A stretch of DNA of 64,000 bases, taken from Azorhizobium doebereinerae UFLA1-100 (GTDB lineage: Bacteria; Pseudomonadota; Alphaproteobacteria; Rhizobiales; Xanthobacteraceae). This document shows, in pieces, positions 50,330 through 53,494 of this stretch (position 1 is its first letter; every line of letters starts with the position of its first letter). The notes beneath the pieces were generated by a model that saw only the letters and a list, made by a program, of their open reading frames with translations, made no database searches and was not told the origin of the DNA. The stretch spans positions 1 to 64,000 of the forward strand of contig NZ_AXBA01000022.1 in assembly GCF_000473085.1 (NCBI RefSeq), written 5' to 3'. The position numbers and the translations under genes were made by a program.

Positions 50330-52327
50330 ATGGCGAAGCAGGCCACCGAGACGACCGAAGCTCCGGAGAAGGAAGTCGACGCCCCCGACGGGCCGTTGCT
50401 CGACCTTTCGGACGCGGCTGTCCGGAAGATGATCAAGAATGCCAAGCGCCGTGGCTACGTGACCTACGAGCAGCTCAACGAAGTGATGCCCTCCGAGGAG
50501 GTGACCTCCGAGCAGATCGAGGACACCCTCGCCATGCTCAACGACATGGGCATCAACGTCATCGAGGCCGAAGAGGCCGAGGCGGAAGAGGCGAGCGAGG
50601 AAGGCGAGGCGGCGGAGGAGCCGGAAGAGGCGGAGGGCGGCGAGCTGGCCGAGCCCACGCCGCGCGCGGTCATCCGCTCCGAGACCAAGTCCGAGCCCGG
50701 CGAGCGCACCGACGACCCCGTGCGCATGTATCTGCGCGAGATGGGCAGCGTCGAGCTGCTGTCCCGCGAGGGCGAAATCGCCATCGCCAAGCGCATCGAG
50801 GCCGGCCGCGAGGCGATGATCGCCGGCCTGTGCGAGAGCCCGCTGACCTTCCAGGCCATCATCATCTGGCGCGATGAATTGACCGAAGGCCGCGTGCTGC
50901 TGCGCGACATCATCGATCTGGAAGCCACCTATGCCGGCCCCGAGGGCAAGAACGCCCCGGTGATCGAAGGCGAGACTGCGCTTGCCCCCGAGGCGGGCGA
51001 GGATGGCATTCTCGGCGACGGCGCCTCTCCCAGCGACGACGAAGACGACATGGAGAACTCCCTGTCGCTCGCCGCCATGGAGACCGAGATCAAGCCGAAG
51101 GTGGTGGAGACGTTCGATCGCATCGCCGACAGCTACAAGAAGCTGCGGCGCCTGCAGGACCAGAATGTCGAATCCAAGCTGAAGAACGAGACCCTCTCGC
51201 CCTCGCAGGAGCGCAAGGCGAAGAAGCTCAAGGAAGACCTCGTCCTCGACGTGAAGTCGCTGTCGCTCAACCAGGCCCGCATCGACGCGCTGGTGGAGCA
51301 GCTCTACGAGATCAATAAGCGCCTCGTCGGCCTGGAAGGCCGGCTGCTGCGCCTCGCCGAGAGCTATGGCGTCGCCCGCGACGACTTCCTGCGCCAGTAC
51401 CAGGGCTATGAGCTCGACCCGAAGTGGCTGCTGCGGGTCTCCAAGCTCGGTTCCAAGGGCTGGAAGAACTTCGTCGCCCACGAGAAGGACGGCATCCACA
51501 CGCTGCGCGGCGACATCCACGCTCTCGCCACCGAGACCGCGCTGGAGATCGCCGAGTTCCGCAAGATCGTGCAGATGGTGCAGAAGGGCGAGAAGGAAGC
51601 CCGCCAGGCGAAGAAGGAAATGGTGGAGGCCAACCTGCGCCTCGTCATCTCCATCGCCAAGAAGTACACGAACCGCGGCCTGCAGTTCCTGGACCTGATC
51701 CAGGAGGGCAACATCGGCCTGATGAAGGCGGTCGACAAGTTCGAGTACCGGCGCGGCTACAAGTTCTCCACTTATGCCACGTGGTGGATCCGGCAGGCCA
51801 TCACCCGCTCGATCGCCGACCAGGCGCGGACCATCCGCATCCCGGTCCACATGATCGAGACGATCAACAAGATCGTGCGCACCTCGCGCCAGATGCTGCA
51901 TGAGATCGGCCGCGAGCCGACCCCGGAGGAACTGGCCGAGAAGCTCGGCATGCCGCTGGAGAAGGTCCGCAAGGTGCTGAAGATCGCCAAGGAGCCGATC
52001 TCCCTCGAAACGCCCATCGGCGACGAGGAAGACAGCCACCTGGGCGACTTCATCGAGGACAAGAACGCGGTCCTGCCCATCGACGCGGCGATCCAGAGCA
52101 ACCTGCGCGAGACCACCACCCGCGTGCTCGCCTCGCTCACGCCGCGCGAGGAGCGCGTGCTGCGCATGCGCTTCGGCATCGGCATGAACACCGACCACAC
52201 CCTTGAGGAAGTGGGCCAGCAGTTCTCGGTGACCCGCGAGCGCATCCGCCAGATCGAAGCGAAGGCGCTGCGCAAGCTGAAGCACCCCTCGCGCTCGCGC
52301 AAGCTGCGCAGCTTCCTGGACAACTAG
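50330..52327 (+). CDS. rpoD: RNA polymerase primary sigma factor RpoD (sigma-70)
   Basis: A 665-residue housekeeping sigma factor. Region 1.1 (VRKMIKNAKRRGYVTYEQLN) is followed by an acidic stretch, region 1.2 (DDPVRMYLREMGSVELLSRE), a non-conserved region, region 2 (IAKKYTNRGLQFLDLIQEGN, GLMKAVDKFEYRRGYKFSTY, ATWWIRQAITRSIADQARTI), region 3 and region 4 (LEEVGQQFSVTRERIRQIEA). It ends RKLRSFLDN at TAG. The ATG at 50330 is preceded by GGAG. The last 122 bp are duplicated at 53315-53436, so its 3' end may be recombinant. The protein itself is complete. Confidence 0.97.
   Translation: MAKQATETTEAPEKEVDAPDGPLLDLSDAAVRKMIKNAKRRGYVTYEQLNEVMPSEEVTSEQIEDTLAMLNDMGINVIEAEEAEAEEASEEGEAAEEPEEAEGGELAEPTPRAVIRSETKSEPGERTDDPVRMYLREMGSVELLSREGEIAIAKRIEAGREAMIAGLCESPLTFQAIIIWRDELTEGRVLLRDIIDLEATYAGPEGKNAPVIEGETALAPEAGEDGILGDGASPSDDEDDMENSLSLAAMETEIKPKVVETFDRIADSYKKLRRLQDQNVESKLKNETLSPSQERKAKKLKEDLVLDVKSLSLNQARIDALVEQLYEINKRLVGLEGRLLRLAESYGVARDDFLRQYQGYELDPKWLLRVSKLGSKGWKNFVAHEKDGIHTLRGDIHALATETALEIAEFRKIVQMVQKGEKEARQAKKEMVEANLRLVISIAKKYTNRGLQFLDLIQEGNIGLMKAVDKFEYRRGYKFSTYATWWIRQAITRSIADQARTIRIPVHMIETINKIVRTSRQMLHEIGREPTPEELAEKLGMPLEKVRKVLKIAKEPISLETPIGDEEDSHLGDFIEDKNAVLPIDAAIQSNLRETTTRVLASLTPREERVLRMRFGIGMNTDHTLEEVGQQFSVTRERIRQIEAKALRKLKHPSRSRKLRSFLDN
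52206..52327 (+). repeat. 122-bp direct repeat, copy 1 (3' end of rpoD)
   Basis: From AGGAAGTGGGCCAGCAG to the rpoD stop codon. It matches 53315-53436 at the same length with about seven differences (roughly 94% identity), mostly silent; one changes Lys to Gln. The two copies are 1109 bp apart and flank the nuclease-like gene. Confidence 0.95.
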
Positions 52328-53217
52328 GGCATCGCGGCAATCTCCAGGGCAATCAAGCGAAGTCGTTGGCAAGCGGCGACGACTTCGCTCACCACGTCCA
52401 ATTGCTCGGAGAGCGGTTGCCCCCACGAGGCCGTTTTCACGGGGATGCCGAGCATCCCCGTGCTCGCCTTTGAACGATCGACCAGCCCCACTTTGTCTTT
52501 AAGGATCCCTATCCGACTACGATGATCTCCCATTATCTCAAGATCGACCAGATCCTGACTCACCTTCCAAAATATTGAGAAGCCAGTCGGCCTATCTGCC
52601 CATTTAACAGACAGGCCATAGGCATCTCCCGTTGGATCGTGACTAAATTCGGGGGCATTACCCCTTAGGAAGTTTGAAAAATCTTCAGAGAAACTCTTAA
52701 CCTCTATCTTGGACGCAGACGTTATTTTACTCACATTCTCCAAGCAGGAGCGAAGAGCGGATGCACGCCAGTTGGCGTGAGATCCATTTTTCTGCGCGAA
52801 CCATGAGGCAATGTCATCAATTGCAAGCTGGCAATGCCACGTATCGCTCTTGGGAACACTTGAGAGGTATGTGTTCGGCGCAATCAGGACGAGCTTGTAT
52901 TCCGCAGCCAATCCCTCACCCACAAGCTCATTCGCTCGCTCGTGATACCTGTCACACTGAGCATCGGCAAAACGTGCACTGATCTTGTCTTCGATCAGCA
53001 CCGCAATCCGCGTTCCGGCCTTATCGAAATAGACAAGAACGTCAGTCTCACCCCATTTTGCGTTCACTTTTGCTGACACAGAATGCTCAGCTTTCAAAAA
53101 ATCAGCTCCATCAATACCGACCTGAGCGGCTAGCCAGTTCGCAAATCCTGTATCTGAATAGAGTTCTTCAAGGATAAAAAGATCGACGTCGCGTTCCTGC
53201 ATTTTGAAGGGCGCCAT
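52324..53217 (-). CDS. PD-(D/E)XK nuclease-superfamily protein
   Basis: A 297-residue soluble protein. The nuclease core is seen in KWGETDVLVYFDKAG with Asp59, RIAVLIEDKISA with Glu76-Asp77-Lys78, and DAQCDRYHERANELV with a QxxRY pattern; this matches the PDDEXK_4-like families. The rest (LVLIAPNTYLSSV and the C-terminal 150 residues) is not recognised. The ATG at 53217 has AGGA eight bases upstream. The stop codon (52324-52326 read on the minus strand) overlaps the rpoD stop codon in the shared CTAG. It may be an orphan restriction-like or defence nuclease; no methylase or partner is visible nearby. Confidence 0.8.
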   Translation of the reverse strand: MAPFKMQERDVDLFILEELYSDTGFANWLAAQVGIDGADFLKAEHSVSAKVNAKWGETDVLVYFDKAGTRIAVLIEDKISARFADAQCDRYHERANELVGEGLAAEYKLVLIAPNTYLSSVPKSDTWHCQLAIDDIASWFAQKNGSHANWRASALRSCLENVSKITSASKIEVKSFSEDFSNFLRGNAPEFSHDPTGDAYGLSVKWADRPTGFSIFWKVSQDLVDLEIMGDHRSRIGILKDKVGLVDRSKASTGMLGIPVKTASWGQPLSEQLDVVSEVVAACQRLRLIALEIAAMP

Positions 53218-53314
53218 GCATTTATTCCTCATTCGGTCCATGGGCACATTGATAGGTAACATATGGCAGCCATAGCCACTTGAGCAAATGTCCGCTTCAC
53301 CGGCTAACGCTTCC
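52328..53314. mobile_element. Low-GC cassette inserted at the 3' end of rpoD
   Basis: About 1 kb, visibly richer in A and T than its surroundings, between the two 122-bp rpoD repeats. It contains one gene on the minus strand and about 100 bp of upstream DNA. No integrase, transposase or inverted repeats are present. The likely native rpoD terminator stands beyond the second repeat, at 53466-53494. The pattern suggests insertion or recombination that kept rpoD intact by supplying a substitute 3' end. Confidence 0.75.
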
Positions 53315-53436
53315 AGGAAGTGGGTCAGCAGTTCTCGGTGACCCGCGAGCGCATCCGCCAGATCGAGGCGAAGGCGCTGCGCCAGCTGAAGCACCCTTCT
53401 CGCTCGCGCAAGCTGCGCAGCTTCCTGGACAACTGA
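53315..53436 (+). pseudogene. Second, truncated copy of the rpoD 3' end (122-bp direct repeat, copy 2)
   Basis: It encodes the last 40 residues of sigma-70 (EVGQQFSVTRERIRQIEAKA, then LRQLKHPSRSRKLRSFLDN) and ends in TGA. It has no start. It is followed by the strong terminator at 53466-53494, so it is probably the original chromosomal 3' end left behind after an insertion. Confidence 0.9.
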
Positions 53437-53465
53437 GCGCCCCGCGCTCAGGCCATGCAAAGCCA

Positions 53466-53494
53466 AAGGGCCCGGCGCAGCACGCCGGGCCCTT
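53466..53494 (+). terminator. Terminator, probably the original rpoD terminator
   Basis: AAGGGCCCGGCG - CAGCA - CGCCGGGCCCTT, a 12-bp perfect stem with a T-rich tail (GTCGTTTCC). It is 29 bp after the duplicated rpoD end, but about 1.1 kb after the present rpoD stop. Confidence 0.88.

Follow-up and report, generated by a model that had tools for sequence, protein, structure and literature searches.

A nuclease-family gene between two copies of the rpoD end: a probable insertion scar in Azorhizobium doebereinerae

How did a small gene of low GC content come to lie directly behind rpoD, the gene of the principal sigma factor, with a second copy of the rpoD end on its far side? The question is raised by a stretch of 64,000 nucleotides from Azorhizobium doebereinerae UFLA1-100 (contig NZ_AXBA01000022.1, positions 1 to 64,000; hereafter the window, from the genome labelled G000), in which rpoD itself is intact (50330..52327, plus strand; start codon placed by eye), covers Sigma70 regions 1.1 to 4 in Pfam and ends in RKLRSFLDN-TAG. 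We consider it fairly probable that the segment behind rpoD is the scar of an insertion made without a transposase or integrase, fitting the pattern called "insertion with long target duplication"; the mechanism by which the gene was captured is one that we infer. Other genomes and loci are given below by G and L numbers, respectively.

The duplicated rpoD end in the window

A second copy of the last 122 bp of rpoD (52206-52327) stands at 53315-53436, with seven differences (94.3% identity) and a spacing of 1109 bp, in agreement with an earlier note on this DNA that had described a 122-bp direct repeat of about 94%, 1109 bp apart. A repeat scan of 2.7 kb around the rpoD end delimits a direct repeat of 137 nt at 91% identity (52189-52325 and 53298-53434, spacing 1109), all remaining direct-repeat families there being no longer than 29 nt. 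Upstream, the similarity stops before position -122, with 54 of the 78 preceding bp differing between the copies. Copy 1, taken as 52206..52325 (plus strand), pairs with 53315-53434 and leaves out the two differing bases of the stop codon; copy 2 (53315..53436, plus strand) is a fragment with no gene body of its own, which ends in TGA and carries one amino-acid change (K to Q). Matches to the rpoD tail in the whole genome fall at exactly these two places (E 1e-3). Because the copies differ at seven sites, the repeat is no simple assembly duplication, and the assembly artefact that the earlier note had named as a possible refutation can be dismissed in that form.

The segment between the copies (52326..53314) measures 989 bp, has a GC content of 0.51 and is occupied by a gene convergent with rpoD (52324..53229, minus strand; start at 53229 or 53214). 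As had been claimed, it is a single nuclease-like gene of low GC content (0.509 versus 0.678 for the window), with a match to PF14281 (PDDEXK_4) of 24.4 bits against a curated cut-off of 22.3. All 36 sequences aligned, out of 40 homologues found, share D59, E76 and K78, and a structure model of the protein (pLDDT 87) gives weak matches in the PDB (best E 1.2e-3), restriction-endonuclease-like folds among them. The protein is thus assigned to the PDDEXK_4 family, mainly through Pfam, and its nuclease activity is a prediction. Its best named homologues belong to A. oxalatiphilum (90%) and A. caulinodans (58%); homologues were found neither in viral contigs nor in phages (E 1e-8), and plasmids yielded two distant ones (E 1e-10). 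The insert contains no methyltransferase. Integrase and transposase families, whose absence had also been claimed, were found neither in the insert nor in the ten neighbouring open reading frames (ORFs) scanned (39824-63665), five of which have no Pfam match.

Since the last base of the repeat is the first T of the rpoD stop codon, and since the nuclease stop on the opposite strand uses the same CTA as the rpoD TAG, so that the two stops overlap, the insertion point is placed by the alignment inside the rpoD stop codon. Copy 1 is followed by AG-GGC, which gives the rpoD stop TAG and is the same in the other Azorhizobium genomes, G001 and G002; copy 2 is followed by GA-GCG, that is, by the TGA-GCG of the outgroup rpoD genes of G143, G099 and G123. 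The claim that the insertion parted rpoD from its old 3' end is borne out by these outgroup bases. Copy 2, together with a hairpin at 53466..53494 (plus strand; 12-bp stem, 5-nt loop, minimum free energy -31, z -2.1), looks like the old rpoD end, the hairpin being probably the old rpoD terminator. Of the strong terminator proposed beside copy 2, the hairpin is there, and it is not among the terminators listed by a pattern scan. By eye, G002 has a similar inverted repeat behind its nuclease gene. A candidate for the new rpoD terminator is a second hairpin, in the 3' region of the nuclease gene (52438..52462, plus strand; 11 bp, z -3.3), with identical letters in the aligned G002 sequence. Overall, the nuclease 3' coding region just past rpoD (52328-52470) contains two strong hairpins (z -4.5 and -3.3).

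The other Azorhizobium genomes bear on the history of both the gene and the repeat. Counted per 100 bp, the nuclease gene of the window is 91-98% identical to that of G002 over the 700 bp adjoining rpoD and 70-76% identical in its last 200 bp; against G001 (A. caulinodans), identity is 89-95% in rpoD, then 83%, then 52-73% within the nuclease gene. These drops along the gene suggest that its alleles are exchanged or diverge fast. The drop relative to G001 (window 52327-53229 versus L032) is sharp and comes some 100 bp beyond the rpoD stop. A tree of 127 rpoD tails and the 16 second copies described below makes copy 2 of the window the sister of its own copy 1 (support 0.91), and the two agree at five sites where both G001 and G002 differ. 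Because the copies are sisters, the duplication may postdate the species split, or conversion may have made the copies alike again; some of the sites that unite them occur in outgroups too, which leaves the duplication undated. Of the new 3' end that the cassette was said to have supplied, the stop codon alone stands, given this sister relationship.

Second tails behind rpoD and behind other genes

The one case that establishes an insertion rather than a loss is G027. There, two genes are enclosed by a repeat of about 255 bp at 98% identity, made up of 175 bp of rpoD and some 80 bp that include a hairpin; G090 and G147, of the same genus, have a single tail; and the sequence past copy 2 matches theirs over 168-180 bp (90-92%), then again beyond another 2 kb. 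Up to position +58, copy 2 of G027 agrees with the empty-site relative G090 at three of the five differing sites, which is a weak test of which tail is foreign.

With a 139-bp rpoD tail as query (threshold E 1e-10), 340 of 391 genomes of the family gave a match and 26 gave two or more. Counting as tandem a second copy on the same contig and strand no more than 5 kb downstream, 12 of the 340 carry one (the window's G000, G027, G062, G087, G208, G223, G239, G285, G318, G321, G368 and G369). An order-wide sample (358 of 397 genomes with a match, eight with two or more) adds G056, G435, G474 and G748, all from other families, which brings the total to 16 genomes, 15 besides the window's; as at most two candidates per genome were scored, the tandem counts are lower bounds. 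Thirteen other family genomes with several matches went uncounted, their second match lying on another contig or far off on the same one. G547 was dropped because its first tail lies in no full rpoD frame (66 aa), and G129, found by self-comparison only, is not among the 16. Also uncounted is L123 of G115, in which a 90-bp, 98% copy of the rpoD tail stands in inverted orientation some 1.4 kb downstream of rpoD, behind a MerR-family gene. Forty further single-match loci showed no clear second tail, G323 having a 63-bp match of 70%.

In all 16 genomes, the frame of copy 1 is open over the whole of the sequence taken (at least 95 codons). Copy 2 starts anywhere between -86 and -266 before the stop codon (tails of 86-266 bp), and no boundary is common to the 20 junctions compared; coinciding starts are those of G321 and G368, from one genus, at -241, and those of G208 and G435 at -91, with G223 at -86. 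This spread speaks against one att site for all cases. Of the small element that the earlier note had suggested at rpoD, what may be kept is a tail carried along within one cargo type, as a unit that could account for the coinciding starts. G223 and G062 have two extra tails each. Between those of G223 (L111) lies a 145-bp internal piece of rpoD (-615 to -471), and in G369 (L115) the displaced tail is split in two by a 92-aa ORF that resembles, by eye, the end of an IS3-type transposase.

The earlier note had also suggested looking for other genes at the same point behind rpoD, and different cargo was indeed found there in other genomes. The gap of G318 contains a HicB-HicA pair, a relative of which occurs at the same offset in G062 with hicA broken (79% and 67-73% identical); G062 has, in addition, an aspartate-decarboxylase gene between its two extra tails. 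A DUF2442 gene and a partner that we take to be DUF4160-like are present in G208 and G435, and in G223 with the partner truncated. DUF2442 genes also stand behind rpoD in G734 and, with no tail in the next 600 bp, in G011, G111, G231, G260, G204, G029 and G321. The remaining gaps encode a peptidoglycan-binding protein and a membrane-like protein (G027), DUF2809 (G239), a 500-aa protein with no Pfam match (G369), PEMT (G748), DUF6968 and DUF4345 (G285), and a regulator and other products (G087); those of G056 and G321 contain no recognised family. The gaps of G208, G318, G321, G368 and G435 are short (265-588 bp). In size the cargo is small, and several examples belong to the toxin-antitoxin or nuclease type.

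The same scar occurs behind other genes, and rpoD is thus no dedicated insertion point. In Rubellimicrobium (L170:7664-9036), an esterase gene is followed by a homologue of the window nuclease (43%, itself unmatched in Pfam) and then by a 129-bp copy of the esterase-gene end, 99.2% identical. In G231 (L202:1151-2743), msrA is followed by an avidin-family gene on the other strand and then by a 300-bp, 98% copy of the msrA end, and in G203 two ORFs are found between a gene that is presumably DJ-1-like and a 235-bp copy of its end at 81% identity; the G203 and G231 cases turned up in repeat scans of 0.72 and 1.2 Mb of sequence. Repeats in G312, G381 and G007 were inspected and rejected as scars, and none of those inspected in G131, G068, G011, G065 and G163 was accepted as a case. 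Next after the msrA-end copy of G231 stands a reverse-transcriptase gene (2786-3973, minus strand).

Conversely, the nuclease mostly occurs with no such repeat. Among eight close-homologue loci (the window, G001, G002, G178, L170, L171, L187 and the partial L172), a gene-tail repeat lies close around the nuclease gene in the window and in L170 alone; in L172, a 76% repeat is found 2-4 kb from the nuclease gene, in a repeat-rich stretch. Repeats were found in only one of 14 more distant nuclease loci (L190), where they are weak and 3.5 kb off, and in the 15 other second-tail genomes this nuclease was not seen in the gap. Since most of its homologue loci have no close repeat, the nuclease is not needed for the scar; and since scars occur at the esterase gene and at msrA, and other cargo at rpoD, the pattern depends on neither rpoD nor the nuclease. 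In G178, the nuclease homologue (L069:7098-8006, 43%) is located 6.7 kb behind rpoD and adjoins a 610-aa ORF that resembles, by eye, a DNA methyltransferase.

How the scar may have arisen

On the reading that we favour, insertion with a long target duplication, homology or a staggered break would have kept an incoming fragment at the rpoD end, and illegitimate joining would have fixed its other end some 120 bp upstream; the outcome would be a whole rpoD, with the old tail remaining as a scar. Scars of this kind would show up at gene ends, because duplication there spares the host gene. Later strand exchange through rpoD could spread or swap the cargo. In a search for a vehicle, the tail was annotated as rpoD or lay on a replicon of more than 1 Mb in the 40 plasmid records listed of 90, and the 15 rpoD-tail matches in a phage collection were annotated sigma factors or had no annotation.

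Several observations pull the other way. No empty site was found in the genus itself: the nuclease is present in all three Azorhizobium genomes compared, and G001 and G002 carry it at the same rpoD stop codon with no second tail. The earlier note would have given up its proposal if all close relatives shared the arrangement with no empty site; the nuclease is indeed in both and an empty site in neither, but copy 2 is missing from both as well. In G001 and G002, copy 2 must either have been lost or, in the window, have arisen apart from the nuclease. G024 similarly has the intervening genes of G087 (93% and 88%) at the same offsets, with no second tail in 12.4 kb, so that in both genera the scar was lost or arose apart from the cargo. 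In the tail tree, copy 2 has its own copy 1 as closest neighbour in five of the 16 genomes and as second closest in two others; the copy 2 of G239, G062 and G474 is placed elsewhere (support above 0.9), a position more easily explained by a foreign tail than by a pure target duplication. The G474 gap (123 bp) contains no gene and those of G368 and G056 no recognised one, G368 holding little or nothing. The DUF2442 cassettes of three genera (G208, G435 and G223, at L122, L117 and L111) have tails of 91, 91 and 86 bp and gaps of 559-593 bp; given these near-equal tails and gaps, they may be a single unit with a tail of its own, or a single event that exchange has spread. Finally, rpoD may be favoured as a site. 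In a control with the end of carA, one of the 181 genomes with a match had a further one, at a contig end elsewhere, and none had tandem tails, compared with five of 174 for rpoD in the same 198-genome sample (Fisher P 0.027, in a comparison tilted towards rpoD, since its thresholds, 1e-10 and 1e-3, differ and the carA tail is the less conserved).

Part of this evidence is what would be expected if a foreign rpoD end had come in together with the cargo, by homology at one end and illegitimate joining at the other, making copy 1 a hybrid with a foreign end and copy 2 the displaced native tail. The stop codon and next bases of copy 2 are those of outgroups, and those of copy 1 are shared with the nuclease-bearing G001 and G002; the deviating ancestry of copy 2 in G239, G062 and G474 agrees with it, the two extra tails of G223 and G062 look like the product of successive events, and such a model has been published for type VI secretion system (T6SS) arrays of Vibrio (PMC5361080). 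We consider such a replacement nonetheless unlikely: the two tails of the window are sisters and agree at the five sites where G001 and G002 differ, and the 98-99% copies in G027, G435, L170 and G231 would require a very close donor. Target duplication and foreign-tail recombination may both operate. A more active part for the nuclease, which would cut rpoD-like and other gene ends and copy its own gene into the break with a replacement tail, is suggested by the same repeat architecture around two members of the group behind unrelated genes (rpoD and the esterase gene), and by the layout of fungal mitochondrial mORFs, in which a gene with a new C-terminus is followed by an endonuclease ORF and, beyond it, the native C-terminus (PMC3630166). 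With a close gene-tail repeat in two of the eight close-homologue loci, the weak and distant one of L190 among the 14 others, and this nuclease in no other second-tail gap, we regard such homing as improbable. We hold equally little belief in its generalisation, that PDDEXK_4 genes of this group are free-standing bacterial homing genes that break 3' ends and install themselves with a replacement tail, the host gene staying intact.

Two further readings strike us as very improbable. Integrative elements typically enter the 3' end of a conserved gene and restore that gene, and the two tails could accordingly be the attL and attR of a tail-carrying unit or of an element remnant (a cis-mobilizable element, CIME, or an integrative and mobilizable element, IME) whose integrase was lost or borrowed. 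The coinciding tail starts of the DUF2442 cargo (-86 to -91) and of G321 and G368 (-241) are in line with this; against it stand a left boundary that wanders from -86 to -266 across cargo types, the five gaps of only 265-588 bp, and the lack of an integrase in the ORFs scanned near the window rpoD, no integrase search having been made at the rpoD of other genomes. Alternatively, a chance rearrangement would have duplicated the rpoD end and a separate event brought in the intervening gene, as might be read from the two genera that share intervening genes with no second tail (G001 and G002; G024 beside G087) and from the geneless gap of G474. That reading requires two events at one place in many genomes, whereas a single event explains both G027 with its empty-site relatives and the 98-99% copies around single genes in L170 and G231.

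Known systems and significance

Insertion with long target duplication, the process that we favour for the window, is reportedly to be credited to Nobusato et al. 2000 and Furuta et al. 2010. It is described from Helicobacter pylori strains (PMC1643837, PMC3874152, PMC3154945, PMC3031569, PMC4978471), with restriction-modification (R-M) genes flanked by variable target duplications in the order of 100 bp (PMC3874152, PMC1643837). The likeness lies in one or a few genes, no transposase, a variable target repeat of about 100 bp and nuclease-type cargo. The cases there concern R-M genes, whereas the cargo here is a nuclease-family gene with no methyltransferase, toxin-antitoxin genes and other small genes, and the setting is the Hyphomicrobiales and the end of an essential gene that stays intact.

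Two other systems have a comparable geometry. In the displacement of T6SS/Rhs effector ends, for which homology-facilitated illegitimate recombination has been proposed (PMC5361080), a conserved gene likewise serves as anchor, the old 3' part is pushed downstream and repeated events build arrays; there, however, the new 3' end alters the protein, whereas rpoD here still encodes the same product and the cargo is a gene in its own right. Fungal mitochondrial mORFs at atp6 share the order of gene, endonuclease ORF and displaced gene-end copy about 1 kb downstream (PMC3630166). They differ in being LAGLIDADG or GIY-YIG genes of mitochondrial DNA that bring in a foreign tail, in contrast to a bacterial member of the PDDEXK_4 family and predicted nuclease. 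In the window no foreign tail was found, copies 1 and 2 being sisters with only the stop codon differing in origin. The minimal mobile elements of Neisseria are small cassettes at one place, exchanged by homologous recombination in the flanking genes, and tail duplication is not known to be part of that concept.

What is new here is thus the cargo, the target and the recurring record at one essential gene, the pattern itself being already known; literature searches found no report of rpoD-tail scars. Were homing to prove true after all, it would parallel, in bacteria, the swapping of C-termini by endonuclease ORFs of fungal mitochondria, acting even at an essential sigma factor. Single small genes, such as toxin-antitoxin pairs, nucleases or avidin, enter bacteria without any visible vehicle. 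Such gains may be marked by a duplicated gene end, a scar that can be read, revealing the old gene end and pointing to the cargo. Because the rpoD end is strongly conserved, it can keep such scars recognisable for long, and a scan for rpoD tails would count vehicle-less gene gains in a way that is testable across phyla.

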